Virus record (IMG/VR): IMGVR_UViG_3300017962_003379
Location: 1-36,386 of that record
Reading direction: 5' to 3' (one strand)
Length of the DNA: 36,386 nucleotides
DNA from: a virus
Part shown: one piece after another, positions 3,176-27,483 of the stretch
How the letters are laid out: each line of letters opens with the position of its first letter
Position numbering within the stretch: position 1 is the stretch's first letter
Translations under genes and position numbers: made by a program
Notes under the pieces: model-generated
Databases searched by the model: none
The model's input: only the letters and a program-made list of their open reading frames with translations
What the model was told of the DNA's origin: nothing

Positions 3176-3689
3176 GCAGTTCTTCCCATTTATTAAAAAT
3201 ATCAATTTGAAATTGCAGTCTACGTTCGTTACTTGGACGTACACCATGCCACTGCAATACATTTACAAATATAGGTACATTCCTATATTCATAAGTCCAC
3301 ATGTCGTCACCTTGTTTATTACTATAAAAATCCACAGCACTTGGATATGTGATAGGCACAGTGAAACACACTGGTCTAAACCCGTCTTGATGTATAAACA
3401 AGCCATTTACTAACTGACTTCTTGCTAGTTGAAATCCTTGCTGTCCTGTGCCTTTAGTTTCATAAAAATCTAAACGCATTTTAAATTCATGCATTAAGTC
3501 TATTAGATTTTTAATAACAGGCTCTTGTAGTAATCCTAAGTCGTAGCAAACTTCAATGCCAAACGGTTCACCGTTTTTGTCCATATACATGTCAAGATTA
3601 AACTTGTCAAACAAGTACATCCATTCCTCGGGATCATATTCTAATTCTGTAAGTTCAATTATATTATTGTTGAGCGATTCAAAGTGCAT
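3153..3689 (-). CDS. 2-oxoglutarate/Fe(II) oxygenase-like protein
   Basis: The 178-residue protein shows a facial-triad pattern: HQD at residues 100-102 (H100, D102), WHGV with H148, and R157 in the RRLQF strand that would bind 2-oxoglutarate. The spacing fits the double-stranded beta-helix of small phage prolyl-hydroxylase-like oxygenases. Such enzymes hydroxylate a peptide, base or small molecule. It is the last gene of the 22-kb leftward run; its start overlaps the end of the B12-type radical SAM gene by 31 bases. Its final 23 bases overlap the convergent sulfotransferase-like gene. The substrate is unknown. Confidence 0.65.
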   Translation of the reverse strand: MHFESLNNNIIELTELEYDPEEWMYLFDKFNLDMYMDKNGEPFGIEVCYDLGLLQEPVIKNLIDLMHEFKMRLDFYETKGTGQQGFQLARSQLVNGLFIHQDGFRPVCFTVPITYPSAVDFYSNKQGDDMWTYEYRNVPIFVNVLQWHGVRPSNERRLQFQIDIFNKWEELPNLIGNL

Positions 3690-5539
3690 ACCATACCACT
3701 CCTAAATTTATAGTTGTCAGTGACAGCTTCGCTGCCTTCTAACAAGTGCTGACCCATACTACTGTAAGCGCCAAATAATGTCGGTGTAAATTCTATTGTT
3801 ACAGTTTCTGCCGTGTCTGTTAAAAAATTATAATCAAATGTTTGTTTATGTGGATATTTTAAATCAGGATTAAACATTCTAACATCACAGTATTGTACAA
3901 GTTGTTCACTGATTTCTGGATCAATGTCAAACTGTTTAACAAAGTTTCTTATATCGTTGAACATTTTATCTCGTTTATTGATTCCCAATGTTACTCTATG
4001 ACCCATACTTTGCATCGGTATACCAAATATATTATCTGCAATCCTATGTCTTACAACTTGATCAAACTGTTCTGTCACTGTACTACCCGATGACTCAGTT
4101 ACAAATTTATACCAACGATCATAAAACTCTATCTTATTGCAAATATTCTGTCTATCTAGGTAGTTTGCATAGTCACGTAAGAAGTTAAACTCGTGTCCTA
4201 GTCTAGTACACCAAGTCCATTCAAACAAGTATTTGATATCATCGTTTGTAAGCCAATTAGTACTGTATATCTGCTCCATATATTCAGCTGTACTAGCATC
4301 ACCATTGTCACCTCTATATCCAGGCCCGACTCCAGGAAACGGACGTTCAATTGTTTGTATACCGTGTTGCTGCCTACTTTCAGGACTTGCAAGTTCGGCT
4401 CCTGGGAGTATACCAAGTGGAAAAATTTGTGTACTTAATTGATCAAAATCTGCAAGCGTAATGTATGTTTGTTTCCAACTGTCAACTGTTTCTCCAGGAT
4501 TTCCAAGTATAAGTTCACAATCTACCGGCAAATCTAATTCTTTACAACGATTAGCAAGAAATCCATACTTGTTGATATCCATGTTGTCACGTTTTATTAA
4601 AGTAAGAGCATCTTCAGTAAGTGTTTGTAAGCTCATAATAAACGCTTTAATAAAACCAGCATCGTATAATTTTTTAGCCATTTGCAATATATCTTCATTT
4701 GCCATTTTAGCCCAATTCACAAAGTACATTTTTGGATAACCATACTTTTCTTTTGTCTCAATTAATATGTCTACAATAGCGTGATCTCTATCTTTAAATA
4801 GCCCAAAGTTGGCATCAACATTATACAAAAACCCGATCTTATTTTGCCCGGCCCATTCGATATCTGCACGTATACGTTCAATATCATACTTAGTTACTTT
4901 ACTATACGTTAAACTACCCCAGTCACAAAATGTACAAGCGTAAGGGCAGCCTCGATGAGTTTCAAACAAAGCACTATGATTAGATTTAACCTCAGTAAAT
5001 AAATTGCTAGCATAAGGACTAGGTATGATTTTTAAGTCACGTATTCTGTCAGATTTTGGATCATTACTGTAAGTCCAGTGACTGCCAAAATTAACACATA
5101 CGTTTGATAGTTCAGCCATTTGTGCTCTATCATCGCAGCGTAACAATTCGACAAACTTTTTTTCGCCTTCATAGTAAACAACAACATCTACATAAGGATG
5201 CTCTTCCCACCATTTGTCGTCGGGTCGTTGAGGTAACTGCGGGCCGCCATATACAATTAAACATTCAGGATATTGTTGTTTAATGGCTTGTGCTAGCCCG
5301 TCATTATAATTAGCATTCCAAACATAGCAACTCATCCCAAACACACTAGGATTGTTTAATGATTCAACTATCTGATTGTAGTCTTGTTTTTCAAAAAACA
5401 TGCCGCCCAGTTGATAATTTTCAACAATGTCTGGCTGTGTTTGTGCATAACTCCAAAGCGTGGCACTACTGTAAGGTAAAAATTGATTTTCACCAGGATT
5501 AATTACAATACTAAAGTGCGACAGATAAACTGTTTTCAT
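3659..5539 (-). CDS. B12-binding-domain-type radical SAM protein
   Basis: The protein has 626 residues. Residues 1-170 look like a cobalamin-binding Rossmann domain (strands around VFGMSCYVW and CLIVYGGPQ, then VVVYYEGE), the layout of B12-type radical SAM enzymes. The SAM-cluster motif is RGCPYACTFCDWG, with C198, C202 and C205 in CxxxCxxC spacing. Downstream come FLYNVDANFG, a typical second strand, and ELILGNPGET. The classic DxHxxG cobalamin ligand is not visible, so any B12 binding would be base-off or His-off. A C-terminal half of about 300 residues is uncharacterised. The start overlaps the methyltransferase stop as ATGA. Family members often methylate unactivated carbons or rearrange substrates; the reaction here is unknown. 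Confidence 0.85.
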   Translation of the reverse strand: MKTVYLSHFSIVINPGENQFLPYSSATLWSYAQTQPDIVENYQLGGMFFEKQDYNQIVESLNNPSVFGMSCYVWNANYNDGLAQAIKQQYPECLIVYGGPQLPQRPDDKWWEEHPYVDVVVYYEGEKKFVELLRCDDRAQMAELSNVCVNFGSHWTYSNDPKSDRIRDLKIIPSPYASNLFTEVKSNHSALFETHRGCPYACTFCDWGSLTYSKVTKYDIERIRADIEWAGQNKIGFLYNVDANFGLFKDRDHAIVDILIETKEKYGYPKMYFVNWAKMANEDILQMAKKLYDAGFIKAFIMSLQTLTEDALTLIKRDNMDINKYGFLANRCKELDLPVDCELILGNPGETVDSWKQTYITLADFDQLSTQIFPLGILPGAELASPESRQQHGIQTIERPFPGVGPGYRGDNGDASTAEYMEQIYSTNWLTNDDIKYLFEWTWCTRLGHEFNFLRDYANYLDRQNICNKIEFYDRWYKFVTESSGSTVTEQFDQVVRHRIADNIFGIPMQSMGHRVTLGINKRDKMFNDIRNFVKQFDIDPEISEQLVQYCDVRMFNPDLKYPHKQTFDYNFLTDTAETVTIEFTPTLFGAYSSMGQHLLEGSEAVTDNYKFRSGMVCTLNRSTII

Positions 5540-6141
5540 GCTTTACGATATATCCTTAAACTATGATAGTGTTGAACACCTTCATGATTTAAACTTTTAA
5601 AAGGACCGTGTTCTTCTACTAGTTCTAATGCTGTTTGTGTGTCCCACCCACTAATATTTACATAATCATACCCTTCTTGGTTTGGAACAGTCATAACAAG
5701 TACACCATCGTCAGTTAAACTATCTGCTAGATTTTGTGCTGGCGCACTATCTAAATGCCCGCGAGTAAACACACCACTAGCAATAATAACAGGATATTTA
5801 CGTGGAAAAGCAGTTGCTAGAATATCACAGTAATTAACACTGCGATAGTAAAGTTTTGCTTGATCTAAAAACATCATGCTAATGTCATAACCGTCTACAT
5901 TCAAGTAACGTGACTTTTGTAGTATTTCTCCAACAGCGCCTGGTCCACAAGCTAAGTCTGCAATTTCAACATCAGCATCATAATTTAACATTACCCAAGC
6001 GGCTGTTTTACTAGGACCAATCCAATTGTCTGTTAAGATAATATCGTTGGTATAGGTATCCCAATTTTCAAAAATTTCTTTTTGTTTTGTAATGTCATTG
6101 AAACCATCTATATAACTTGTTTTTAATATATCAGTATTCAT
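5536..6141 (-). CDS. class I SAM-dependent methyltransferase
   Basis: The 201-residue protein carries motif I as IADLACGPGAVG at residues 60-71, followed by an acidic strand end (VDGYDISMMFLDQA), the standard SAM-binding Rossmann arrangement. A later hydrophobic strand (GVLVMTVPNQEGYDY) fits the post-core region of a small-molecule methyltransferase. Its overall look is close to UbiE/Methyltransf_11-type proteins. The start overlaps the preceding adenylating enzyme by 11 bases and the stop overlaps the B12-type radical SAM gene as ATGA, so the three are probably co-translated. The substrate is not evident. Confidence 0.8.
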   Translation of the reverse strand: MNTDILKTSYIDGFNDITKQKEIFENWDTYTNDIILTDNWIGPSKTAAWVMLNYDADVEIADLACGPGAVGEILQKSRYLNVDGYDISMMFLDQAKLYYRSVNYCDILATAFPRKYPVIIASGVFTRGHLDSAPAQNLADSLTDDGVLVMTVPNQEGYDYVNISGWDTQTALELVEEHGPFKSLNHEGVQHYHSLRIYRKA

Positions 6142-11237: not shown

Positions 11238-12048
11238 TTATAATCTCTTCTCTAATGTAATCTGTGACACAGACTCTTTTATCTCCGTCATACGCTGTCA
11301 TCCAAAGTTGACACGGTGTTAAGTTATTTTCCTCGCAGTAGCGTAACTGTATTGGCTTGGCAACTCTAGTCACATATCTCGCATCAAACTGTGACAGCAC
11401 AGTTTTTGCTCCTTCCACTGCCATAATATTATAGTAATTATAATTAAAGTTGTTACCATGAACAGGTATAGTTAAACTACTTGCTAGATCATCTCCATAC
11501 ACTATTCCTGCTCTAAGTCCTGCAAGCATGAAATTTTTACTTAAACTAAATGCAACTGCATCATATACACTATCACTTGTGTCTAGACTTTCAAAACTAT
11601 TGCCATAAAAAGCACAATCTAAAAATATATGACAGTTGCGTTGCTTGCACGTTTCGATTAAATCATTTAATTTAGGATGTATGCTGCCTGTGTGATTAGG
11701 TTGACTTGTTATAATATAACTATTGGGTTCGATTGTATCAAGCTGATCCCATGTTATTGTTTCATTTTCATATGGAAGTAGTATATGATAGTAATATTGA
11801 TAGTCGTCTTCAAATCTGTAAAACTTTTTATGATCTCGACTACGATAAGCACACTGTTGTATTAGTGCATCATGTATGCCATTGGTAATACTCCATTCAC
11901 GTTTACTTGTGCATCCATCAAAGTCATCGATCCATGTATTCCATAGCTGATGATATTCTGCACTTTCTGTTGCAGTACCTTTATTTTTTATTTGCATTTT
12001 TTGTAATGCTTGTGACACACTAGGCGGCAAAAAACTATACACTGACAT
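11215..12048 (-). CDS. PLP-dependent aminotransferase, compact fold type I
   Basis: Although only 277 residues, the protein keeps the aspartate-aminotransferase-type residues: N118 in SQPNHTG, D144 in FLDCAFYG (pyridine nitrogen), Schiff-base K171 in FSLSKNF and R179, exactly eight residues after the lysine as in classical enzymes. ITNGIHDAL near residue 54 corresponds to the glycine-rich cofactor loop. The usual C-terminal small domain is much reduced. It would exchange an amino group or act on an amino-acid-like substrate. It overlaps the mini-adenylating gene by 14 bases, hinting that the two act on one intermediate. A related small PLP enzyme lies at 25505-26371. Confidence 0.75.
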   Translation of the reverse strand: MSVYSFLPPSVSQALQKMQIKNKGTATESAEYHQLWNTWIDDFDGCTSKREWSITNGIHDALIQQCAYRSRDHKKFYRFEDDYQYYYHILLPYENETITWDQLDTIEPNSYIITSQPNHTGSIHPKLNDLIETCKQRNCHIFLDCAFYGNSFESLDTSDSVYDAVAFSLSKNFMLAGLRAGIVYGDDLASSLTIPVHGNNFNYNYYNIMAVEGAKTVLSQFDARYVTRVAKPIQLRYCEENNLTPCQLWMTAYDGDKRVCVTDYIREEIINELYVSR

Positions 12049-12733
12049 TTTTTCGCCCTATGTAATAATATACTTCTTCTCTTTGATCTACTACATCGCC
12101 TGTAGCAAACCAATCATCGTACACACAAATATCACCTTTAACATATAATTCGCCCTCTTGTATGCGAGTATCACACCACACTGTATCGCCCATAATACTT
12201 TCTGGGTTTTGTACTTGCATGCCTGGCTTGTAAGTTTTGTTTATTGCTGTTGGTCCAACTTCTGTCATTCCCCAATTAGCAATAAATGTTGCACCACGAT
12301 CAACAAATGCTTGAATTAATATGCTAGGCACACGGTCACTGCCGCACATAATTGTAATGTTAGTTAAATCTAATTCTGCAAACTTGTGTGTTTTCATTAC
12401 AGCACGAGCCATATCAGGTGTTAAATGACTGTGTGTATAGTCTTGTATTTGCCTTGTCCATGCATAAGCATTAAACGGTTGTACGTCAATATAAGCACCT
12501 ACTTCATGTGCAGGAAGTGTTTGTGCTAACAAACCGCCTGCATGTTTAAGTGTGCATACTGTGAGTACTCTACTTGACTTAGTTATGTTTTGTACTTCAC
12601 GAGCAACACTATTTGCAGCCAATAACTTACTTACAGGCTGTACTATTTGTTTAGGTGTACCTGTACTACCGCTAGTACTAAGTGTTGTGCCGTTACTGAG
12701 AATGTTGTCTAACAGCGAGGTAATTTCTGACAT
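12035..12733 (-). CDS. mini ANL adenylating enzyme lacking the C-terminal domain
   Basis: This 232-residue protein contains the adenylate-forming core only: STSGSTGTPK at 19-28 (A3), NWGMTEVGPT at 153-162 (a canonical A5, unlike the two larger paralogues), WFATGDVV around 208-215 (ribose Asp) and YIGRKNV at 224-230 (hinge). It ends there, so the lid domain with the catalytic A10 lysine is absent. It is also missing most of the N-terminal subdomain. It may work like the small OSB-CoA-ligase-type enzymes with a partner supplying the lid, or only make an acyl-adenylate. It overlaps the GNAT-like gene by 41 bases and the aminotransferase by 14. Confidence 0.8.
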   Translation of the reverse strand: MSEITSLLDNILSNGTTLSTSGSTGTPKQIVQPVSKLLAANSVAREVQNITKSSRVLTVCTLKHAGGLLAQTLPAHEVGAYIDVQPFNAYAWTRQIQDYTHSHLTPDMARAVMKTHKFAELDLTNITIMCGSDRVPSILIQAFVDRGATFIANWGMTEVGPTAINKTYKPGMQVQNPESIMGDTVWCDTRIQEGELYVKGDICVYDDWFATGDVVDQREEVYYYIGRKNVSV

Positions 12734-13208
12734 TTAATTTCCATACATTTTGCTCTGTATAAAATACTTCTTTACGTTCAACAAAAGTCACAAGTTTTTG
12801 TAACGCAAGTTTATGAAACATTTTATCTACACGATTCATGCGTCCGCTTGCATCATTTTCAACATTGGTTGTAATATAAATTGGATACACACCTGCATGT
12901 TCTATTTGTAGAGGAAGTTGATCTGCAAAACAATAACTTTGCATATGATGCCTGTTTAGACCACAAAGTCTTGTTTGTATTTGCGCACCTCTGAATAATG
13001 CTCTATAGCCATCTTCCCAACGGTGTATTCCACTGATACTGATTATTTCATCTAACTCATTGTAAGTAGCAAACCAAGCGCCATTTTCTAAACACCAGTC
13101 CCATTTCATTGCTTGTAAACTGTTGTTATTTTTATAACCACGCTGCTTACACTGATTAATAAAATACATTAATGCACTATTAGGTTGTGTAATACGTTCT
13201 GTTATCAT
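12693..13208 (-). CDS. GNAT-like acyltransferase domain protein
   Basis: The 171-residue protein shows a layout seen in marine phage GNAT-like proteins: MKWDWCLENGAWFATYNE followed by a strand ISISGIHRWEDGYRALFRG and a later ITTNVENDASGRMNRVDK segment that could bind a CoA pyrophosphate. The classical GNAT Q/RxxGxG/A loop is not clear, so cofactor use is uncertain. It is joined to the AspH-type oxygenase by an ATGA overlap and runs 41 bases into the mini-adenylating gene, so these three genes are tightly coupled. The product and acceptor are unknown. Confidence 0.5.
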   Translation of the reverse strand: MITERITQPNSALMYFINQCKQRGYKNNNSLQAMKWDWCLENGAWFATYNELDEIISISGIHRWEDGYRALFRGAQIQTRLCGLNRHHMQSYCFADQLPLQIEHAGVYPIYITTNVENDASGRMNRVDKMFHKLALQKLVTFVERKEVFYTEQNVWKLNVRNYLAVRQHSQ

Positions 13209-13786
13209 CGTTCACCTAGTATAGTAGCAACCAAATGAATTCTAGGTTCTGCGCTACCGTTAAATGCTGTGTGTTTTAATAGTGTATTTGTGAACCACCA
13301 CTGTGATTCAGTTAAGTGTTTTACTTCATCTTCAATGACCATAAAGCAACCGTCTTGTGTTTTAATAGGATAGTGTACCCTTGGATGATGATCTACGTGC
13401 CAGGATAAACATGTTTTAGGATTACTACGCATTAGTCGTACACGACCTAAATGATACACACGATTTAGTTCATTGTATGCGTCTTCAAATAGTGTATTTT
13501 TAAATTGATTACACAGTACTGTAAAGTCGCCTTCTTCTCTTGGTGTTTCAAATTTGGGAACATCTAATATAATGTTTCCATCTTTATCTTCTATTTCACG
13601 AGCACGAGACCAATCCCATACTAAACTGCCACTAGCTAAATGAATATCATTTTCGTGTCCTGGCAGTGTAGTAAGACCAATTTGGTTTTCTTTTTCTTTC
13701 CAGCTAATCAACCCTGCTTCTAACAAGTTTGTTAGTGTTCTGTCTAGTGCAAATCTTTTCAAATTTAACGGCACAAAATTAGTCAT
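13205..13786 (-). CDS. AspH-type 2-oxoglutarate/Fe(II) oxygenase
   Basis: The 193-residue protein matches the aspartyl/asparaginyl beta-hydroxylase pattern: LSWHVDHHPRVHYPIKT with H130 and D132, a loop with W163-W164, then HTAFNGSAEPRIHLVA with H172 and R182. These are the iron triad and the 2-oxoglutarate arginine in the expected order. Family members hydroxylate peptide side chains or free amino acids; several act in natural-product and lipid or peptide modification pathways. Start and stop both overlap neighbours by ATGA, placing it directly between a radical SAM enzyme and the GNAT-like protein. Confidence 0.8.
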   Translation of the reverse strand: MTNFVPLNLKRFALDRTLTNLLEAGLISWKEKENQIGLTTLPGHENDIHLASGSLVWDWSRAREIEDKDGNIILDVPKFETPREEGDFTVLCNQFKNTLFEDAYNELNRVYHLGRVRLMRSNPKTCLSWHVDHHPRVHYPIKTQDGCFMVIEDEVKHLTESQWWFTNTLLKHTAFNGSAEPRIHLVATILGER

Positions 13787-14898
13787 ACTGATTTCCTTTT
13801 TGGTATTTTGCTATCAGCACTTGAAACACAAGCTGGTGTAGTACAAATACGTGGTCCATCAAACAGTTTAAATCCTGTTTCTATGTTACCAATTGGAACA
13901 TCATGACAAGAGTAGGAACGTTTGATACTTCCATCAGGCTCTCTAATAATAATGCCTTGATATCCACTGTTACACATCCATCCTTCAAAGTTATTAAAGT
14001 TAAACGCATTAAAACGTTCAGCTTGATCCATATACCACTTCTTACCTTTACTGTCAGTAAATTCTACTTGCATGTGCCACGGTACGCTTTTATCATTTTC
14101 GCCTATTGTGTAAGGCGGCAGTTCGAAACTAGGCCGTGGACGACCATCCCATTTTCGCTTTGTCTCAGTATACGCCATTTGCGGCATTCCGTTCCACAAT
14201 CGCTGTAACATTTCTTCTGTATAACCGTCCACGACTCTTGACGCCGTAGGGTCAGATTGGGGTTTGAGGGTAACGTTGATTCCTTGTTCATGGAAGAATA
14301 AAGCATTTTCCCAATCTCTTTCAAACCATTCCGGAACCATAACCATGTTAATGGTAATCTGTACATCATACTCCTGACATAATATTAGCTTGTTTGCAAA
14401 GTCCTGTAACTTCTCACGAGTATTTAAGTGTTCTGTGTGTAAACTTGCTGTAATACTTGCTCTATGAAATGGCTTTGCACGTTCTACATAATCTTCAAAC
14501 CAAGCCATATTGCGGCTACAGTTTGATGTCATGTGTATACTTGTATAGTTTGTATTTTCTACATCATCAGCTAGATGCTTTAATATGTCCAAGTATCCAG
14601 GATGGAAAGTAGGCTCTCCTCCTGACAGGGAGAAGTGGAAAGAGTTGAAGCCGTTGTCTCGGGCTTGACGTTTAATTTCATCCACTGTAAGCAAGCAGAG
14701 TTCGGTAGGACGGTGGTCTTTACGATCGCTTCTTGCGTAGGGCCAGCAGTAGGAGCATTTGTAGTTGCAGAATCTTCCCAATAACCAACTAACAGTAAAC
14801 AAATCACGATAAAGCAAAGTGCGTTGACCAACTTGCACGATATCTTCGTAGGGTATTTTGGTGAAGTCATATTCGCTCCATTTTAAGTCATCATCCAT
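13783..14898 (-). CDS. radical SAM protein with C-terminal cysteine cluster
   Basis: From the ATG at 14898, supported by GGAGAG (the frame continues to a TTG at 14910), the protein has 371 residues. The SAM cluster is CNYKCSYC with C44, C48 and C51, followed by SGGEPTFHPGY (the GGE strand). The C-terminus holds spaced cysteines (GWMC, YSCHDV, ICTTPAC), consistent with an auxiliary iron-sulfur cluster of the SPASM/twitch type. The motif CNYxCSYCWP is shared with the gene at 29920-30837, which has the same C-terminal cysteine layout, so the two are paralogues. The enzyme would generate a 5'-deoxyadenosyl radical; the substrate is unknown. Confidence 0.88.
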   Translation of the reverse strand: MDDDLKWSEYDFTKIPYEDIVQVGQRTLLYRDLFTVSWLLGRFCNYKCSYCWPYARSDRKDHRPTELCLLTVDEIKRQARDNGFNSFHFSLSGGEPTFHPGYLDILKHLADDVENTNYTSIHMTSNCSRNMAWFEDYVERAKPFHRASITASLHTEHLNTREKLQDFANKLILCQEYDVQITINMVMVPEWFERDWENALFFHEQGINVTLKPQSDPTASRVVDGYTEEMLQRLWNGMPQMAYTETKRKWDGRPRPSFELPPYTIGENDKSVPWHMQVEFTDSKGKKWYMDQAERFNAFNFNNFEGWMCNSGYQGIIIREPDGSIKRSYSCHDVPIGNIETGFKLFDGPRICTTPACVSSADSKIPKRKSV

Positions 14899-15508
14899 TA
14901 AACTCTCCAATTAGCCAAACTCTTTCTTCAAATAAATGAAGAGGTTTATTATATTTTTTACTAAAGTCATGTACTGCTCGTTTAACGGGTTCATGTCTTT
15001 CACTGTAGTCATCGCCGCATATTAAAGTTGATCTTTTAAAATATTCAAGTTCTGCCATTACGTTTTCATATGTATGATTACCGTCTAGATACACTAAATC
15101 AAACAAATTAGCATAATTTAAACACATGTAATCAGCTGAACGCATTGTAAACACTTCTTTTATGATATGTTTATTATGGTGTTGATTAATAATATATTTA
15201 AAAGTAGCATACTGTCCATGCTTAAAATAATATTCAAATAGTTGTTTTTTAGTATCTGACATCTCACCGTCGGTGTAGACGTCTGTTTCCATTTTTTCTT
15301 TTACATTTTCATCTGGGAGTTTAAAGTTGTCTATTATTGTTAGCGATGCCATTGGATTTAAAGCAGTTAGCCAACTACTAGTGCTTTTTCCAAAAGCTGC
15401 TCCAATTTCCAATACGTTGCTATTTGCAGAAATTTGTTTTGCAATCCTCTGAAATGTTAGTAATTGTGAAGGCTCTGTAAAGCCTGGTATATCATTTAAA
15501 TCTAGCAT
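14891..15508 (-). CDS. class I methyltransferase, Methyltransf_24 type
   Basis: The 205-residue protein has SAM motif I as VLEIGAAFGKST at residues 32-43, LTIIDNF as the second strand, and VYLDGNHTYENVMAELEYF, the Asp-Gly-(Asn)-His-x-Tyr signature of the Methyltransf_24/cephalosporin-hydroxylase-like group. These often methylate hydroxyls on sugars or small molecules. A sigma70-like promoter candidate lies just upstream in one of the few real gaps of the leftward run (30 bases). The stop overlaps the radical SAM gene by 8 bases. The acceptor is unknown. Confidence 0.78.
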   Translation of the reverse strand: MLDLNDIPGFTEPSQLLTFQRIAKQISANSNVLEIGAAFGKSTSSWLTALNPMASLTIIDNFKLPDENVKEKMETDVYTDGEMSDTKKQLFEYYFKHGQYATFKYIINQHHNKHIIKEVFTMRSADYMCLNYANLFDLVYLDGNHTYENVMAELEYFKRSTLICGDDYSERHEPVKRAVHDFSKKYNKPLHLFEERVWLIGEFNG

Positions 15509-15521
15509 ATTATTCTTTCTT

Positions 15522-15549
15522 ATTATAACATCTTAGGATTAAAAGTCAA
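15522..15549 (-). promoter_or_regulatory. sigma70-like promoter candidate
   Basis: On the minus strand TTGACT (15549-15544) is separated by 16 bases from a perfect TATAAT (15527-15522). It occupies the 30-base gap before the methyltransferase gene, the widest gap in the leftward run, and its -35 box lies in the end of the SGNH-like gene. The predicted start of transcription would be only about 7 bases before the ATG, so the leader would be very short. In AT-rich DNA a chance match is possible. Confidence 0.4.
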
Positions 15550-16162
15550 TCAAGGAATTAACCCAGTGGGCTTGCCATTCACACCCTTGCTTGTTAAAGT
15601 GTCCTATTGCAGTAGAATCATCTTTGAAATCAATTTTATAATTTTCAAATTGCTCTGTACTTAGTGCAGCGGACACTACAGGAAATTTATCAGTTGATGG
15701 TGAATAATGGGCAAAAACAAAATCAGGTTTGCTTTTAATATAGTCACTGAAAATTTCGTGTTCTAAATTCAATGTTTTTACACTGCGTCTAGTATAATAA
15801 TCTTTAACAAATTGTTTTTCTTCTATACTATAACTATTCAAAAATTTAAAATACTTGTTACTATTTTTTAAATCAATCCAACGATATCCGTCTTCGTGCG
15901 GTGTTAAAATTTCTTGCCAATCGATGCTTTCATCTTTATAGTAAGTAATCCTATTAGGAAGTGTGATTTGAAATATAGTTTTATTGTACATTTTGTGCGT
16001 ATCTTCGTATGCTTCTATGCTGTACAGCAAACTAGATCCACTGTTAGCATAGTTGTCAATGGTCAAGTCGGGTCTTAATTTAGTAAAATAATTAACCCAA
16101 CTTATATATTCATTGGCTTTTACACCATAGCTAAGACTACAACCATAAACAGCTACTCGCAC
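15539..16162 (-). CDS. SGNH/GDSL-hydrolase-like protein
   Basis: The 207-residue protein begins MRVAVYGCSLSYG, where GCSLS at residues 7-11 takes the place of the GDS(L) block and S9 would be the nucleophile. Near the C-terminus GHFNKQGCEWQAHWV supplies a His typical of the final block (DxxHFN-type). Such proteins deacylate or transfer acyl groups on carbohydrates and are common in phage glycan clusters. It has a 4-base gap after the nucleosidase-like gene. The GCS variant leaves catalytic activity uncertain. Confidence 0.6.
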   Translation of the reverse strand: MRVAVYGCSLSYGVKANEYISWVNYFTKLRPDLTIDNYANSGSSLLYSIEAYEDTHKMYNKTIFQITLPNRITYYKDESIDWQEILTPHEDGYRWIDLKNSNKYFKFLNSYSIEEKQFVKDYYTRRSVKTLNLEHEIFSDYIKSKPDFVFAHYSPSTDKFPVVSAALSTEQFENYKIDFKDDSTAIGHFNKQGCEWQAHWVNSLIDF

Positions 16163-16166
16163 AGCA

Positions 16167-16718
16167 TTATAACTCCGCTAATTGATCTAAAAACAAAGCT
16201 GCACCGTCTGCTACATTTTTAGCCCATTCGTCGGCAGCATTTTCATCTGCCATGTCACTAATATACTTGAAACTTCTAAACGGTATCTTATATTGTTGTG
16301 CAACATACGCTAGTGCCCATCCTTCCATGTCTACACAGTCTACGTCAGCTTTAACAAACCACGGATCAGCTTCCATTACAAAACTATCACCTGTGCCGCA
16401 GCGTACTTGCATAACAGGTGCTGCGGTTTTAATATCACTGATAACTGGATCACTGAATGGAACAGTACCTCTAGGTGCTTGAGGCTCTGCAATCATATCA
16501 CGTTGTATAAATGTTCCAATTTCTACTAAACCTTTTACTATTGGATTTAGACCTCCTGCTGTGCCATAGTTAATAATCAATTTTGGTTTATTTGCTTTGC
16601 ACAAGTGCTTTGCCAGAGCAGTTGCAGCTTGTACTTTACCAACTCCTGTGTAAACTATATCAACTCCACGTGGAGGTTCAGGTAATTCGTCTTTAAGTGC
16701 TACGCATAGTGTTATCAT
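16167..16718 (-). CDS. MTA/SAH nucleosidase-like nucleoside phosphorylase family protein
   Basis: Starting at the ATG at 16718, with a GAGGA binding site inside the end of the previous gene (an in-frame upstream codon at 16736 is less likely), the protein has 183 residues. It contains NYGTAGG at 50-56 (phosphate/purine loop), MEG at 131-133 with E132 for ribose binding, and SDMAD at 154-158 with D155 as the general acid of MTA/SAH nucleosidases. That family cleaves adenine from methylthioadenosine, S-adenosylhomocysteine and 5'-deoxyadenosine. Its setting among radical SAM enzymes and methyltransferases makes by-product removal a reasonable role. It is shorter than bacterial Pfs (about 230 residues). 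Confidence 0.82.
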   Translation of the reverse strand: MITLCVALKDELPEPPRGVDIVYTGVGKVQAATALAKHLCKANKPKLIINYGTAGGLNPIVKGLVEIGTFIQRDMIAEPQAPRGTVPFSDPVISDIKTAAPVMQVRCGTGDSFVMEADPWFVKADVDCVDMEGWALAYVAQQYKIPFRSFKYISDMADENAADEWAKNVADGAALFLDQLAEL

Positions 16719-16720
16719 TG

Positions 16721-17278
16721 TTATTCCTCGTACCAATATTGATCTTGCATAGGATCAATACTAACTTCATTTACATTAAAATGTTTAGGCTGATCTATCA
16801 ACCATTTAATATATTGTGCAGCAACATCTATATCTATGCACTGTCTATCTGGATGTTTGTGCTGATTATTGCTTAGTGTTCCAAAACTAATTAAACTTAC
16901 TTTAGGCTTATCGCTCCACACACCCATTAATCCAAGTGTATTACAGTAATCACGTAAGGCTTTCTTTTCTGCGTTGTATAACCAACCGCCGCCTTTCTTA
17001 ACTCTATCAGTAGTACTACCTATACACACAATATGTGCTTTTTTATTGGCATTAATTAGTGCCTTGCATACTATATCTAGTATAACAGTTTGGGTAAAGC
17101 GCCATAGTGCGCTATTGATAATGATTACGTCATGCTGTACAGCCTTTTCAGCAAATAGTTCCTGAGATTTATGTTCAGTTAAATCAAATCCGTTTGTTCT
17201 ACTAATAAACTCAGCTGTTGGATACAGTTTGTACAAGGCTTGTGCTAGTCCTTGCTCTGGATTTCCTGTAATAATCAT
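16721..17278 (-). CDS. SDR-like dehydrogenase, compact
   Basis: The 185-residue protein begins MIITGNPEQGLAQAL, a variant of the TGxxxGxG dinucleotide loop, followed by VIIINSALW where the NNAG motif would lie. A possible catalytic set is S88 (CIGSTTDR), Y101 and K105 (YNAEKKA, the YxxxK signature). At 185 residues it is short of the usual 250, so it lacks most of the substrate-binding C-terminus. It would oxidise or reduce a hydroxyl or carbonyl with NAD(P). The start is fixed by an ATGA overlap with the twitch radical SAM gene and GGAG upstream. An inactive relative is possible. Confidence 0.65.
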   Translation of the reverse strand: MIITGNPEQGLAQALYKLYPTAEFISRTNGFDLTEHKSQELFAEKAVQHDVIIINSALWRFTQTVILDIVCKALINANKKAHIVCIGSTTDRVKKGGGWLYNAEKKALRDYCNTLGLMGVWSDKPKVSLISFGTLSNNQHKHPDRQCIDIDVAAQYIKWLIDQPKHFNVNEVSIDPMQDQYWYEE

Positions 17279-18522
17279 TGTGTCTCCATGTACGGAGCAA
17301 ACTCTGGATACCAGTCTAGTATGTTAGTTTGATGATATTTGTCTAGCGCACGAGTATAGTTTACAAAGTCTTGCCAATGTTCATTCCAGTCTTCGCTGTT
17401 CATATAATCAATAACACTGTTACCAAACCTACGAGCTTGACGCATTTGTCTTTCTAAATTAATTTTAGGATTTATTGCAAATTCTTCTTCCATGCGTTCG
17501 CTAAACTCTTGCCATTGTTCTGTTGTTTGCTGCTTGAGTGCAGCAGGCAATAGTTTTGGATTTAATGCTCTTGGATATTGTACTAAACTTGTATGTACAT
17601 ATGCTCCAATACGATTAAAGTATTTGAATACATCAACAAGCCTAGTAATGTTTAACAAGCTAGTTGTACATGTAGCATTTAAAAACACGTTGTCAAGTTC
17701 ATTTGCGACACGAGCCATATTAGCCTCTACTTGATCCAAGTGTGCATGAACTCTAACATATTCATATACTTTATCATCTGCATCAATACTTACACGTATA
17801 TCAATCTTTTTAAACTTTTTCCAAAGGTCTAGTATACTTTTACCTTTGTATTCTAATGTGTTTAAGTTACTGTTGTAACTAAGTTCAATATCATGAGCAG
17901 AATCTAGCAATCCTTCTAAAAACGCATAGTGCTTGTCGTGATACAACGGCTCGCCGCCTGCAATCATAATTTGTTTTAAATGCGGAGCAAATGTTCCAAT
18001 TTCTGAGATCATTTCATCAGTCAATCGAACATGATAATCCATTTTACGATAGCTGCCATTAATCTTTTGTTGTTCTAACAATCCGTCATCACGCTTTACA
18101 GCCGCTTCCCATTTACTACTGTAGTCTGGACTACAGTGTCTACACATTAAATTACAAATATTATCAAAACGTATTTCAATTGATGTCATATTTTCCAATG
18201 GCATTGTATAGTCATCGTTCATTGCTGCCATAGCACGTTCATAGTCAACAGTCTCAGAAAAGTCATTGATACAATTTTGTCTAGTACTGCTAACACCACT
18301 ACGCTCTAAATCCCAACAGCTTTTACAGCCTGGATGTTGTTCACCGTTTAGTAACGCACGGCGTAACTCACGCATACGTTCACCGTTCCATGTGTCAGTA
18401 AGTGTGTCATCTAAATAATCGCCAATCCTGTCAGGAAAGCGCCAACAAGCACTTAACTTGCCTTCTTGTTTAATATTAATATGACTAAATGGCATCACAC
18501 ACCATGTATTAGGATGTTTCAT
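17275..18522 (-). CDS. N-terminal-twitch radical SAM protein (array gene 6)
   Basis: I use the ATG at 18522 (415 residues); the frame reaches a TTG one codon earlier. The SAM cluster is CNLMCRHC with C123, C127 and C130, and AGGEPLYHDKHY is the SAM-binding GGE strand. Before the barrel lies an extra cysteine set, C8 (WCVMPF), C26 (SACWRF), C66 and C69 (CKSC), the layout of the twitch-domain-containing radical SAM family. Most array members have CC where this one has a single Cys at 26. It overlaps the previous array gene by 14 bases and the SDR gene by ATGA. The auxiliary cluster probably passes or accepts electrons; the substrate is unknown. Confidence 0.88.
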   Translation of the reverse strand: MKHPNTWCVMPFSHINIKQEGKLSACWRFPDRIGDYLDDTLTDTWNGERMRELRRALLNGEQHPGCKSCWDLERSGVSSTRQNCINDFSETVDYERAMAAMNDDYTMPLENMTSIEIRFDNICNLMCRHCSPDYSSKWEAAVKRDDGLLEQQKINGSYRKMDYHVRLTDEMISEIGTFAPHLKQIMIAGGEPLYHDKHYAFLEGLLDSAHDIELSYNSNLNTLEYKGKSILDLWKKFKKIDIRVSIDADDKVYEYVRVHAHLDQVEANMARVANELDNVFLNATCTTSLLNITRLVDVFKYFNRIGAYVHTSLVQYPRALNPKLLPAALKQQTTEQWQEFSERMEEEFAINPKINLERQMRQARRFGNSVIDYMNSEDWNEHWQDFVNYTRALDKYHQTNILDWYPEFAPYMETQ

Positions 18523-19915
18523 CAAAAATACCTTTCATTTCAGGAAATGTTTCTGCAAAACTATTTCCACGTTGACGATCACACAAATCTATAAACTGCT
18601 TCATTTCAGGCAAACGAACACTCCAGTCTTCACTTTCCATAAAGTTAAGCATACCTTCTAAACGTTTTATTCCATAATCAGCATTACGCCATTTATCATA
18701 TTCTACACGACCTTGGTGCCAGCTAGGAATACCTTTTTCCCAATTAGCTTCCCACCATGGATAAAACTCTTCGTACTTACGACGACACTCTGCTTTAAAC
18801 CAAGCGGGCAACACTTTTACATTTAAATGTGCAGGATGATAAACAAAGTGATAGTTAATACCACCTGCCCCAAAAGGCCACATGTTAATTTTTTGGAAGC
18901 CTTGTTCAAGTTTCCAACGAATAAAATCAGGCAAATAATATACATTAAGTGCTTGTACCGCACAAGCAAGAGTAACTTCAGTATTATCACCTGTTTGCTT
19001 GTCTAGTATATGAAACACTTCTTCAGTACGTTTCCATTCACTTGGATAGCGAATGTAATCATTCATAGCATGTATACTGTCTACACTGTAGTGGAAGCGT
19101 ACTAGTTTAAACTCTTTCCATAAATCAAACAAGTCTTCACGCCACTCTACGCCATTCGAATTATAACGCAACTCTAAGTTTTTAGCATGCCCTTGACGTA
19201 TACATTCTTCTAGTATTTCATAGTGTTCCTCAATAATAAGACTTTCGCCGCCAGCAAAATATATTTGCTGCATATTAGGAATTTGTTCATAAAACTGTTG
19301 CCAAAAAACTGGATTATCTCTGTGCCAATTATAGCTACTGCCGTTAACACTTCCTTTGTCAGCCCACTGCATAGTATCTTTAAGATTGTTATTTGTTACT
19401 TGTGGATGTATTGCTTGCCAATCTTTGATCCAACCTGAACTATCATGCGGGCTACACATAACACATGCTAACTGACATTTGGTACCAAAACGTAAATCAA
19501 TATACGCAAGTTGTGGAGGCACTTCGCCATCTTCTTGTGTGTTTGCTAACAGTTCTTCGACATTAGTACGCTGACTCCAGTAGTGTGTTTCCCATTGGCG
19601 TTTGCTGCGATGACCAGCAGCTTCTTCTTTAAAACATTTTGCACAGCTAGGTGGTATCTCACCGTTCATCATTTGCTTGCGAACATTGCGCATATACTTG
19701 CTGTTCCAACTACTTTGAAAGTCAGTTATGTTTAAGTTATTGGGCCTACCTTCGTCATCTTTAAGCACACCAATCATGCCACCATGTTCACTTTTATCAT
19801 TAGTAGGACCAACACTTGACGCATTTGCTGTACAGCAAACACGCATACTTCCGTCAGGTCTTGTACTTAAATGCACCCATGGCAGAATGCAAAATGTATC
19901 ACTTATCTTTTTCAT
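18509..19915 (-). CDS. N-terminal-twitch radical SAM protein (array gene 5)
   Basis: The 468-residue protein is the largest of the array. The N-terminal cysteines are C9 (FCILPW), C27-C28 (RVCC), C91 and C94 (CAKC); the SAM cluster is CQLACVMC with C147, C151 and C154. FAGGESLIIEEHYE is the GGE strand and HYSVDSIHAMNDYIRYPSEW the radical-SAM barrel strand found in all array members (S-D-[GAS]-x-Y-x-R). The pattern LPWVHLSTRPDG near the start is shared by gene 3. It overlaps the PP-loop ATPase by 17 bases, and no strong ribosome binding site is visible. Confidence 0.88.
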   Translation of the reverse strand: MKKISDTFCILPWVHLSTRPDGSMRVCCTANASSVGPTNDKSEHGGMIGVLKDDEGRPNNLNITDFQSSWNSKYMRNVRKQMMNGEIPPSCAKCFKEEAAGHRSKRQWETHYWSQRTNVEELLANTQEDGEVPPQLAYIDLRFGTKCQLACVMCSPHDSSGWIKDWQAIHPQVTNNNLKDTMQWADKGSVNGSSYNWHRDNPVFWQQFYEQIPNMQQIYFAGGESLIIEEHYEILEECIRQGHAKNLELRYNSNGVEWREDLFDLWKEFKLVRFHYSVDSIHAMNDYIRYPSEWKRTEEVFHILDKQTGDNTEVTLACAVQALNVYYLPDFIRWKLEQGFQKINMWPFGAGGINYHFVYHPAHLNVKVLPAWFKAECRRKYEEFYPWWEANWEKGIPSWHQGRVEYDKWRNADYGIKRLEGMLNFMESEDWSVRLPEMKQFIDLCDRQRGNSFAETFPEMKGIFDETS

Positions 19916-20687
19916 AATTTTCTAATGCCCAATGTTTTTCTTTACACCACCAACACTGCATACAATCTTGTGTAAAGTTTTTTGTTAAGAATGTATCACC
20001 TTCACAACTTCTTGTTATACGTTTGAGATCATCTGTTATGCCTAATTGATGTGCAAGCCACATAGTAATTCTTTTGTCTGCATTTCTAAATGGCTCTATG
20101 TCTTTTAATTTTATTTTTTCATAATCGAAATATCTAACCACGCCCGCACTGTTTTCTATTGTATCTAATTTACAATCTCTGTGTGTTTCCGGACTGTCTT
20201 CTATACTGCCTGGCGGAGGATTTAATGTTGTTCCTGAGTACAATGATATATTATAGTTGTTTTCGCTTGCTTGTTTTAACGCCCAGGCTTCAGCAGTACG
20301 TTGCTGATACAAATAACTGTTTTCTTTCTTAATGTTTTCACACCACCAATAGTCAGCATCTAGTATTATATTAAATATAAACTGTTGCTTTTGAAAATGC
20401 TCTTTTACAAACAATTCAACATTTGTTGCAACTATACCATTGTTTACTCGATTTAGCATCCTGTTAGGTGTAAGATTACGTCTGTTTACTGTCAATTGTT
20501 GTATTTTGATTTTTAAATCAAATTTTTGATTTGCATGTGCAATTAGATAGCACAATACAGCACTGTCCCATCCACCACTTAGCTTAATAGCTGCTATTGG
20601 GTGTTCAGCATCTATGTATACATCACCATACGGTGTATTATACTTTACAAGTTTATCATCAGTCAAGTCTGCCCGGAGTTGCATCAT
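19899..20687 (-). CDS. PP-loop ATPase with QueC-like cysteine site
   Basis: The 262-residue protein has the PP-loop SGGWDSA at residues 37-43, the SGGxDS(S/T/A) signature of N-type ATP pyrophosphatases, which adenylate a carboxylate or carbonyl to add nitrogen or sulfur. Near the end C228, C242, C245 and C248 (SCEGD, then DCMQCWWC) resemble the zinc site of QueC but with a longer first spacing. No QueD, QueE or FolE is nearby, so a preQ0 route is unlikely. It is embedded between radical SAM array genes 4 and 5 with overlaps of 29 and 17 bases. The first ATG at 20687 and the adjacent one at 20684 are equally possible. The substrate is unknown. Confidence 0.75.
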   Translation of the reverse strand: MMQLRADLTDDKLVKYNTPYGDVYIDAEHPIAAIKLSGGWDSAVLCYLIAHANQKFDLKIKIQQLTVNRRNLTPNRMLNRVNNGIVATNVELFVKEHFQKQQFIFNIILDADYWWCENIKKENSYLYQQRTAEAWALKQASENNYNISLYSGTTLNPPPGSIEDSPETHRDCKLDTIENSAGVVRYFDYEKIKLKDIEPFRNADKRITMWLAHQLGITDDLKRITRSCEGDTFLTKNFTQDCMQCWWCKEKHWALENYEKDK

Positions 20688-21918
20688 ATTCCTCTTTTAT
20701 TATTTGATAAAATTCTGGATATACATCTTCGAATTTTTGTTTTCTCAGACGATCTAAATCTTTATTATATTCTGCAAAACGAACAATATCTTTACTGTCG
20801 TTTTGACTGTTAGTTAAAATGTTAATAACTCTATCGTAAAATCTTTTAATATAATCTATATCTTCACTGTTGCTGTATTCTGCAAATTCTTCACGGTAAC
20901 GTTCAGCAAGTTTGTGTTTATTTGGATAGTTATCAACACTGTATGCTTCTGGATAATACACTGTACTAGTAACAAAGTCTCCAGGCATCATCTCTTCTGG
21001 ATGCCCAGTTATTCTTGGCAACTGCATTTCAACACGTAAGTTATACCACCATTTGAATACTAGTCCTATATTGCTAATGTTTAGTACGTTAATAGTAGGA
21101 GCAATACAAACTCCTATGTTATCGTTTTCTTTTTCTAATTCTAACCAATGTATAGCATGAGCACTTAATGTTTCCCATTGACTTCCGTGTCGAATATAAT
21201 CATTGTATTTTTCAACACCGTCAATACTTAAACTTATAAGAACTTCGCCAAACTGTTTAAGTAATTCAATAATACTATTTTTAGGAAACCAACTACTGTT
21301 AGTAAAGATTACTAGTTTAGTATTGCTTGCATTACCTCCTGCTAGCACAGTTTCTAAGAATTTGCCAAAGTTTGGATTTAACATTGGCTCGCCGCCAACA
21401 AATTTAATTTCTTCAATTTGTGCGAAATCCTCAGGTTGCCAACTAAATTCAATGTCAATTATTTTCCTACTAGGACGATTTTCTTTGTATACTTTACTAA
21501 GTGCTAGGTCATCATCATACCAACTTGTGCTTAAATTACTATTGCAAGTACGACAACTTAAATTACAATAGTTTCCAAAACTAACTTCTAAGTATTTTAA
21601 TCCTATGCTGTTGTCATGTTCGGGCCAGCGTTGATTAAACATAGTACGCATGCTGTATCCAACACGCTCTTCTTCTTGATAACATTTCCAACACCCATGC
21701 ACAGGTTCTCCTGCTAGCATTTTTTCACGCACACCAGCAAACTGTGGACCATTTAATACGTTATCTGTTCCAATCGAATTATGATTGTTTTCAGCCCAAA
21801 AATCTGCACTTTCTTCAGTATCCCAATGAACAAATCTACAGCAAGGCTTTGCTACACCGTCTGGCTTAACTGCAAAGTGCAAAAATGGTAATACACAATA
21901 TGTATCTTGTTTTGTCAT
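20659..21918 (-). CDS. N-terminal-twitch radical SAM protein (array gene 4)
   Basis: The ATG at 21918 forms an ATGA overlap with the previous stop and has AGGA upstream, so I prefer it to the longer frame; the protein has 419 residues. N-terminal cysteines are C8 (YCVLPF), C26-C27 (PCCRF), C76 and C79 (CWKC). The SAM cluster is CNLSCRTC, with C118, C122 and C125. FVGGEPMLNPNFGKF is the GGE strand and SLSIDGVEKYNDYIRHGSQW the barrel strand. Its first 30 residues are the most typical of the family (CVLPFLHFAVKPDG, CCR). The end overlaps the PP-loop ATPase by 29 bases. Confidence 0.9.
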   Translation of the reverse strand: MTKQDTYCVLPFLHFAVKPDGVAKPCCRFVHWDTEESADFWAENNHNSIGTDNVLNGPQFAGVREKMLAGEPVHGCWKCYQEEERVGYSMRTMFNQRWPEHDNSIGLKYLEVSFGNYCNLSCRTCNSNLSTSWYDDDLALSKVYKENRPSRKIIDIEFSWQPEDFAQIEEIKFVGGEPMLNPNFGKFLETVLAGGNASNTKLVIFTNSSWFPKNSIIELLKQFGEVLISLSIDGVEKYNDYIRHGSQWETLSAHAIHWLELEKENDNIGVCIAPTINVLNISNIGLVFKWWYNLRVEMQLPRITGHPEEMMPGDFVTSTVYYPEAYSVDNYPNKHKLAERYREEFAEYSNSEDIDYIKRFYDRVINILTNSQNDSKDIVRFAEYNKDLDRLRKQKFEDVYPEFYQIIKEEYDATPGRLD

Positions 21919-25504: not shown

Positions 25505-26371
25505 ATGCGAGATAGTGTTAATAGAGAATATACCAGAGAATGGTTGCAGTTTGAAAGACCACAACCAATGTACGACAGTAGTATTAATAAACTATATGAC
25601 AGATTTTATCAAGAAAATCCTGTACATAATGAAAATTTATTTGAAGATTTTAAAACAGAATTTGTTAACTGGTTAGATCAACATACAATGAGCAAATTGT
25701 CTGGTTATAAAAACTTCACACAACAAGATATATGTGTTGGATGTACACAGTTTATCGACGATTTATACATGCGCTGTAGTACCAATGGAATACAAATATT
25801 AGAAAATGATTACAAGTATCACTGGAGACTTAATCCTGACATTGAATATGTTACTATAGATACACTTGATCCTGCTAGAGAATTAATTATAGCAATGCCA
25901 TTTCCATATTATGGAGATGTGCATCCGAAAATGAATCAAATACTTGATCGCTGTGAAGAACTTGACATACCTGTACACATAGACGCTGCTTGGTTAAGTT
26001 GTAGTAGAGATATCGAATTTGATTTTGATCACCCGGCAGTGAAAACATTTTGTATTAGTTTAAGTAAAGGCGGACTTGGCGGCAATCGTATAGCATTGAG
26101 ATTTGCTCGTAATCGTCCAGACGGTGCTATTACTATTATGAATGATTTTAATATGAACTGTCAAAGTTTAGTGTGGATGGGTATAAAATTTATGCAAGAA
26201 CTAGGTCCAGAATATTACTGGAGAGAATACGGAGCAGAATACGACCAAGTATGTAAGGATTTCAATTTACAACCTAGTAAAGCTATACACCTAGCTACCA
26301 ACAACGGTGAGCCTGTAGGTGTAAGACCTGTGTTGAGAGCATTAAAGTCACTGAATATCCTCAGCCACTAA
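25505..26371 (+). CDS. small PLP-dependent enzyme, divergent aminotransferase fold
   Basis: The 288-residue protein has a compact fold-type-I core: ICVGCTQFIDD (about 76-86, cofactor loop position), D160 in VHIDAAW (pyridine nitrogen), Schiff-base K188 in ISLSKGG and R195 seven residues later. The sequence IAMPFPYYGDVHPKMNQILD aligns in position with SQPNHTGSIHPKLNDLIE of the aminotransferase at 11215-12048, indicating distant paralogues. It is transcribed away from the 22-kb run and its last 24 bases overlap the convergent radical SAM gene. A reduced small domain may change the reaction; the substrate is unknown. Confidence 0.65.
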   Translation: MRDSVNREYTREWLQFERPQPMYDSSINKLYDRFYQENPVHNENLFEDFKTEFVNWLDQHTMSKLSGYKNFTQQDICVGCTQFIDDLYMRCSTNGIQILENDYKYHWRLNPDIEYVTIDTLDPARELIIAMPFPYYGDVHPKMNQILDRCEELDIPVHIDAAWLSCSRDIEFDFDHPAVKTFCISLSKGGLGGNRIALRFARNRPDGAITIMNDFNMNCQSLVWMGIKFMQELGPEYYWREYGAEYDQVCKDFNLQPSKAIHLATNNGEPVGVRPVLRALKSLNILSH

Positions 26372-27463
26372 ACCAAGTAAAGGTCTTTTCTTTAGCTCAC
26401 TTACACTACATGTTTGTGTACATCTCATAATTCTATCCTTGGGACCTGTGCCATGACACTTTGACTTCCAACTATCAACTAAATCATTTTTATAAAATTC
26501 TGATTCTATTATTTCGTCAAGCGTATAATAATTTAAATTATTCCAATTTTCGCCGTAAATTTCAAAACGTTGATCTTGTATTTCATGCACTTCTTTATGT
26601 AATCCGTTGTAATTTCTATTGCCAATAAAACAACAAGGCCACACACAGCCTTTGTAATCAACAAAATACATGTGTTGTTGTTTACAATGAATATACTCAT
26701 CCATCTTGTCAGCCTGATGACTGTTTAATTCTTCCCAGCCAATTTGGTGCTTTCGTCTAATAGCCTTATTGAGATCAACATGTGCTAATGCCCTGTCGGG
26801 TCGAGACATAAATCGTGCGAACCCCATGTCTTTAGCTAGTTGTTTGGCTTGATCAGTCTGATGTTCATTCCAAGGAAAAATTAACCATTGCCACAATGCG
26901 TCCTCAGCATAATCTAAATTAGATAAACGCTTTGATTCGTCGAGAAATGCTTGTGCATTTTTAATTATTTTGTTCCAATTACTTCCGCGCCTATACAAAT
27001 GATTTGTATCTTCTAACCCGTCTATACTAAAATGAATTCTATGAGGAATGTCGTTTTTTGCGAACAAGTTAGCTAACTTTGTAAAGTAGTCTGGCGATCT
27101 AAGACTTGCATTGGTATGTATTAAGATCAGATGATTGGTGTTTGTTACAATATAGTCTACCATATCTAAAAATTCAGGATGTGCTAGTGGATCATCTATT
27201 GTTCCAATAAATTCTATTCGCTTAACATTATTTTTAATTATATCACTATCTATTAGTTTTGTAAACACATCAAAACTTAAAAATTCATTCTTAGGAATAG
27301 CGGGATTAGTTTCTAGCTTTAAATTATAAATGTCAACAGACACGTCTGGATCATCGTATTTTTCTATAGAACTAAACAGTGTTCTAACACACCCAGGACA
27401 TCCTAGATTACAATTACTGCTAATTTCTAGTTGCAATGTTGAGGGGTTTCTGTTATAATGCAT
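26348..27463 (-). CDS. SPASM-type radical SAM protein
   Basis: I start at the ATG at 27463 (371 residues): an upstream in-frame ATG at 27478 lies inside the promoter palindrome and could not be used from it. The SAM cluster is CNLGCPGC with C18, C22 and C25. Downstream are RIEFIGTIDDPLAHPEF, HFSIDGLEDTNHLYRRGSNW and a SPASM-like cysteine set (FVDYKGCVWPCCF, then KCHGTG and RCTQTC). The same blocks occur at 30830-31924 (HLYRQNVVW and LLMPCCW), so they are paralogues. It is transcribed leftwards from a bidirectional late-type promoter and overlaps the PLP gene at its end. Substrate unknown; SPASM proteins act on peptides or glycans. Confidence 0.9.
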   Translation of the reverse strand: MHYNRNPSTLQLEISSNCNLGCPGCVRTLFSSIEKYDDPDVSVDIYNLKLETNPAIPKNEFLSFDVFTKLIDSDIIKNNVKRIEFIGTIDDPLAHPEFLDMVDYIVTNTNHLILIHTNASLRSPDYFTKLANLFAKNDIPHRIHFSIDGLEDTNHLYRRGSNWNKIIKNAQAFLDESKRLSNLDYAEDALWQWLIFPWNEHQTDQAKQLAKDMGFARFMSRPDRALAHVDLNKAIRRKHQIGWEELNSHQADKMDEYIHCKQQHMYFVDYKGCVWPCCFIGNRNYNGLHKEVHEIQDQRFEIYGENWNNLNYYTLDEIIESEFYKNDLVDSWKSKCHGTGPKDRIMRCTQTCSVSELKKRPLLGLVAEDIQ

Positions 27464-27475
27464 ATTAAGTACCAA

Positions 27476-27483
27476 CATAAATA
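27476..27483 (+). promoter_or_regulatory. late promoter CATAAATA for the amidinotransferase operon
   Basis: CATAAATA exactly matches the marine T4-like late consensus and lies 17 bases before the ATG at 27501, leaving a short leader that includes GAGA at 27491-27494. It overlaps the complementary box on the other strand at 27482-27489. Confidence 0.6.

Follow-up and report, generated by a model that had tools for sequence, protein, structure and literature searches.

Gene content of the window

The DNA analyzed here (the window) is an IMG/VR virus record of 36,386 bases from a marine phage. On its minus strand, positions 16167-16718 encode a 183 amino acid protein whose reading frame is intact and ends with a stop at 16167. 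Its ATG start at 16718 is preceded by a GAGGA stretch resembling a ribosome binding site; an alternative TTG at 16736 would lengthen the product by six codons. The motifs NYGTAGG, DMEG and SDMAD were all found, so that the position and motifs (NYGTAGG, MEG, SDMAD) given in the initial annotation were confirmed, as was its statement that the gene lies amid a radical SAM island: Pfam revealed 11 radical SAM (PF04055) domains between 4463 and 31876, on both sides of the gene. The dN/dS values for five pairs of relatives were 0.12-0.24, and the gene is under purifying selection. No match to the Gp23 capsid protein was found in the window itself; a T4-type Gp23 is present in the related records G006 and G007. 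Phage records contained no near DNA match to window positions 13000-25000.

The genes around the nucleosidase are closely packed on one strand. Between it and the flanking radical SAM genes lie one gene upstream, coding for a 185 amino acid protein, and two further genes downstream. The main features are:

3659..5539, minus strand, B12-binding-type radical SAM protein (KedN5-like, below cut-off)
5536..6141, minus strand, methyltransferase-like protein (weak, below cut-offs)
13783..14910, minus strand, radical SAM protein, the nearest downstream of the nucleosidase (PF04055, 6.1e-15)
14891..15508, minus strand, SAM-dependent methyltransferase domain (PF13578)
16167..16718, minus strand, nucleosidase, 183 amino acids (PF01048; fold; residues E11, E132, D155)
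16721..17278, minus strand, 185 amino acid protein directly upstream of the nucleosidase (weak short-chain-dehydrogenase signal)
17275..18525, minus strand, twitch/SPASM-type radical SAM protein, the nearest upstream (NF033640, 339.9 bits, above cut-off)
18509..19915, minus strand, radical SAM protein (NF033640, 423.9 bits)
20659-21948, 21915-23240, 23233-24288 and 24275-25465, minus strand, four radical SAM genes
26348..27478, minus strand, radical SAM protein
29920-30858 and 30830-31924, minus strand, two radical SAM genes

The 185 amino acid protein gene is kept at or near the same place in the clade to which the window belongs (L003, L008, L009, L010 and L055) and occurs also on L011, which derives from the same record as L005. 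An orthologue of the radical SAM gene at 13783-14910 was likewise found near the nucleosidase in L002-L005 and L008. The methyltransferase at 14891..15508 is a possible source of S-adenosylhomocysteine (SAH).

Besides its eleven radical SAM genes, the region 3659-31924 contains AMP-ligase-like, aminotransferase-like, sulfotransferase and Asp/Arg-hydroxylase-type genes. It looks like a biosynthetic cluster, and is more unusual than the nucleosidase itself. Two AMP-binding ligase-like proteins are encoded in tandem (6131-7558 and 7539-8951) and are clearly paralogous by eye, the former falling under all NCBIfam cut-offs shown; a short AMP-binding protein of 232 amino acids is specified by 12035-12733. 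The product of 11215-12048 is an aminotransferase-like protein of 277 amino acids, to which that of 25505-26371 is similar by eye without a Pfam match. A QueC-like protein, barely over the Pfam cut-off, is encoded between radical SAM genes at 19899-20687.

Enzyme class, fold and catalytic residues

The protein matched PF01048 with 77.6 bits (1.3e-21) against a gathering score of 25.1, which places it in this superfamily. The closest NCBIfam model was PRK05634 'nucleosidase' (107.8 bits, under the cut-off of 129), which 44 of 45 relatives matched at 1e-5. The scores for TIGR01704 (MTAN; 43.8 bits, cut-off 73.8), PRK05584 (MTAN; 63.9 bits, cut-off 169) and TIGR03664 (futalosine hydrolase; 52.7 bits, cut-off 124.7) also lay below threshold, so that the class is best given as an MTAN-like superfamily nucleosidase and not as an MTAN equivalog. 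PHROGs contained no family for the protein or for any of the 45 relatives. The match to PRK05634, a model of 185 amino acids, is nearly full-length, but the score is below cut-off and the model carries no tested function.

A structure model built from a 45-row alignment, from which the fragment L004 was excluded, had a pLDDT of 89.5 (75 from seven rows only). Compared with solved structures, its best match was the MTAN 5cce (Z 21.5, rmsd 2.1, 179 of 183 residues, 21% identity). All 50 listed matches, with Z scores from 21.5 to 18.5 and 169-179 residues aligned, were titled MTAN-type or futalosine hydrolase, and they include structures of the E. coli mutants Glu12Gln and Asp197Asn. In a fold search of BFVD, three nucleoside phosphorylases of giant viruses were the only matches with an E value of 0.001 or lower. 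In an alignment with the E. coli MTAN sequence, E11, E132 and D155 correspond to the catalytic residues Glu12, Glu174 and Asp197, and none of the 45 relatives departs from them. The equivalent of E. coli Arg193 is Lys in all 45, and the E. coli 5'-pocket positions 105 and 107 fall in an alignment gap.

The protein thus resembles the bacterial MTANs (Pfs, MtnN; E. coli, H. pylori) in predicted fold over nearly its whole length and in its catalytic Glu/Glu/Asp, but is about 50 residues shorter, with 19-29% identity, and differs from the E. coli enzyme in the Lys for Arg193 and a shorter loop at the 5'-pocket residues. Predicted fold and catalytic residues together support well its assignment to the PNP/MTAN-superfamily nucleosidases. 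The name 'MTA/SAH-nucleosidase-like' originally given to it stands as to superfamily, fold and catalytic residues, and is broader than the evidence in that the MTAN models stayed below cut-off. Since those cut-offs were missed and PHROGs offers no family, the substrate is put conditionally: action on 5'-modified adenosines would be the natural reading, with 5'-deoxyadenosine as the putative main substrate.

Relatives in phages and bacteria

Two scans yielded 7 and 48 viral nucleosidase loci which, with the window included and pairs of loci from a single record (L002/L010, L005/L011, L006/L014, L007/L024 and L008/L049) counted once, represent 49 records. PF04055 matches were present in 23 of these, 11 of which have 11 or more. 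The other 26 records had none; many are short fragments, and some exceed 40 kb (G011, G020, G039 and G041). The initial annotation had named a consistent absence of radical SAM neighbours from the relatives as an observation that would count against it, and this is half the picture, since these 26 viral records lack such genes and the SAR11 and SAR86 homologues examined sit elsewhere.

Twenty cellular loci of the homologue were found, SAR11 and SAR86 among them. A gene of the SpeD-SpeE-fusion cluster lies within 5 kb of the homologue in nine SAR11 loci, and one of the phosphoribosyltransferase cluster in 13 cellular loci, the identities of these neighbours having been Pfam-checked on L063 and L045 only. 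This neighbourhood in SAR11 points to salvage of methylthioadenosine (MTA) and adenine. L055, a contig from a Gammaproteobacteria MAG with 67-68% identity, has six radical SAM genes around the nucleosidase and may be a phage contig.

Radical SAM enzymes commonly receive their electrons from ferredoxin. In six loci (L006, L015 and L020-L023), belonging to a clade other than that of the window, the last few codons of the nucleosidase gene overlap with the beginning of a ferredoxin gene (assigned through Fer4 of Pfam on L006). The record of L006 (G003) has 18 radical SAM matches, the nearest some 18 kb from the nucleosidase. A clamp-loader-like AAA gene adjoins the nucleosidase upstream in the same six loci.

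In phage C48C1 (L249, 8460-9519) a phosphoribosyltransferase gene overlaps the nucleosidase gene downstream of ribonucleotide reductase genes, and both products are annotated as hypothetical. Matches in Acinetobacter phage MD-2021a (H2 and H3) were not counted as evidence from phages. The part of the record in which H2 lies contains ileS, lspA, ribF and ssu genes, because of which this stretch of L250 (CAKLQH020000009.1) looks like bacterial chromosome.

Placement beside radical SAM genes

The position of the nucleosidase was evaluated for the records with four or more radical SAM genes, 14 in number. Those with one to three were excluded; in some of them, including G002 and G031, the nucleosidase adjoins a radical SAM gene and in others it does not. 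In 11 of the 14 records the distance from the nucleosidase to a PF04055 domain was no more than 1.5 kb, where random placement would give 3.5 records (P 2e-5, an indicative value since the records are related and not independent); the misses were G003, G027 and G047. Within the same distance and the same records were found none of six metK and none of 14 phosphoribosyltransferase (PF00156) genes. The link of the nucleosidase to radical SAM genes hence exceeds chance position, and is not common to other purine and SAM genes of these records.

In a tree of 48 rows, the 11 radical SAM-adjacent rows from rich records did not form one clade (AU p 7e-6). Restricted to the records rich in radical SAM genes, the tree needed three changes, at least two of them forced by well-supported branches; labels without L030 gave four changes, two forced. 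The initial labels, which counted L030 as radical SAM-adjacent, gave five changes, three forced, and the lower figures were adopted: L030 had been called by a motif-based search, but Pfam returned no matches in its record (G025). The simplest reading of the tree would be repeated recruitment of the nucleosidase next to radical SAM genes; a single gain followed by losses could also explain the lack of monophyly.

Occurrence among radical SAM phages

At least 593 viral relatives of the radical SAM gene at 13783-14910 were found. A nucleosidase occurs within 10 kb in five of the best 80 loci, none of them newly found. Whole records around the flanking radical SAM gene contained it in three of 50 cases, two of which were known beforehand (one of 48 non-preselected records), and a second record set in one of 35, where it belonged to a different, long type. 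Of the 38 large radical SAM-bearing records without the short-type gene, each with 2-21 radical SAM matches, 37 lacked PF01048 proteins altogether. The nucleosidase is therefore not generally needed by radical SAM phages, and the existence of nucleosidase records without radical SAM genes, and of the reverse, makes it an optional helper at most.

A higher radical SAM load as the explanation for its presence was unsupported (means of 15.3 in positive and 13.3 in negative records, p 0.16). SAH hydrolase as a substitute in nucleosidase-negative phages was likewise dismissed, PF05221 occurring in none of 50 records. metK was found in six of 12 nucleosidase-positive and six of 38 negative radical SAM-bearing records (Fisher p 0.025, uncorrected, for records chosen mainly by size).

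The role first proposed, as a helper for the radical SAM island, thus retains the repeated placement near such genes in its favour, and is weakened by the majority of radical SAM phages that lack the gene. The survey of co-occurrence was similarly divided: nearly half of the nucleosidase records carry radical SAM genes, but the reverse is true of few of the loci around the flanking gene.

Comparison with known systems

SAH, MTA and 5'-deoxyadenosine are all substrates of E. coli Pfs, and loss of this enzyme makes cells fivefold more sensitive to the last (PMC10986504); inhibition of SAM enzymes by these compounds is described there and in another paper (PMC8102628). The Lake Baikal methylotroph phages VP_139/VP_266 have, in the text available, radical SAM proteins, a methionine adenosyltransferase, three methyltransferases and an MTA/SAH nucleosidase in one phage population (PMC7678222). 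Phages combining the first two functions with a nucleosidase are therefore already described. The accessible text differs from the present case in that its authors link radical SAM proteins to PQQ and the nucleosidase to modulation of the SAM cycle, and it names neither a radical SAM island nor clearing of 5'-deoxyadenosine (PMC7678222). Pelagimyophages are similar as marine T4-like phages whose hypervariable islands differ by radical SAM cassettes, but the part of that paper at hand does not mention a nucleosidase (PMC7029224). Partial texts further list mtnN/pfs among marine viral auxiliary genes (PMC10653327) and describe phage samples from the Tasman Sea in which radical SAM genes were prevalent (PMC7150976). 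In literature mostly outside subscription journals, we found no paper linking a phage nucleosidase to clearing of 5'-deoxyadenosine. What is new here is the repeated, gene-specific placement of the nucleosidase beside radical SAM genes.

Possible function

From the family, fold, catalytic residues, selection and placement documented above we infer, with a probability of roughly 0.55, that the gene codes for a short MTAN-type nucleosidase of 5'-modified adenosines serving the island as an optional remover of by-products. The radical SAM enzymes of the island would release 5'-deoxyadenosine and its methyltransferases SAH. The nucleosidase would hydrolyse the N-glycosidic bond of these compounds and of MTA, giving adenine and a 5-substituted ribose. 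As 5'-deoxyadenosine and SAH inhibit SAM-using enzymes, an enzyme supplied by the phage to remove them would allow the island to go on working during infection, with the adenine freed for reuse; phages without the gene would probably depend on the nucleosidase of the host.

The main rival is general purine and SAM salvage, in which mainly MTA and SAH are cleaved and adenine enters the nucleotide pools for phage DNA, the seat in the island reflecting only that accessory genes land there. The SAR11 loci favour it, since the homologue there adjoins both the SpeD-SpeE fusion, a producer of MTA, and a phosphoribosyltransferase, as do five phage loci with a phosphoribosyltransferase near the nucleosidase, phage C48C1, where it is directly upstream and beside ribonucleotide reductase, and the viral records that have the nucleosidase and no radical SAM gene. 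Against salvage stand the contrast between the nucleosidase and other purine and SAM genes (of which 0 of 20 lie that close to a radical SAM gene) and the radical SAM-adjacent placement outside a single clade, and we regard it as rather unlikely, though a serious contender.

It is improbable that the enzyme removes the base from a nucleoside intermediate made by the island, as aminofutalosine nucleosidases do, with no part in waste removal. Such a biosynthetic step would agree with the shared fold of futalosine hydrolase, with the AMP-ligase-like, aminotransferase-like and QueC-like genes in the island and with the different loop opposite the E. coli 5'-pocket. But the family also occurs in island-free phages and on SAR11 chromosomes, which makes one island-specific substrate unlikely for it, and the catalytic residues and neighbouring genes in those genomes fit MTA salvage. 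That the gene is a chance passenger, or decaying and functionless in the phage, would fit its rarity among the best 80 radical SAM loci; the intact frame, the low dN/dS, the catalytic residues kept in every relative and the close packing of genes on one strand leave very little room for it.

By-product removal for the island remains the preferred reading, and may be part of something wider. We suggest, tentatively and with the odds somewhat against it, that marine T4-like phages carry a SAM-economy kit, in which metK would supply SAM, ferredoxin electrons, and a short nucleosidase, repeatedly recruited beside radical SAM genes, would remove 5'-deoxyadenosine. Were this true, the radical SAM chemistry of phages would be genuinely limited by by-product inhibition. 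Where a phage genome has 10-20 radical SAM genes, one may ask whether turnover in the infected cell is sufficient for 5'-deoxyadenosine to matter. If the nucleosidase serves plain adenine salvage, it would be an ordinary auxiliary metabolic gene; its position beside radical SAM genes in more than one lineage, unlike that of metK or the phosphoribosyltransferase genes, would be a specific sign that 5'-deoxyadenosine does matter.
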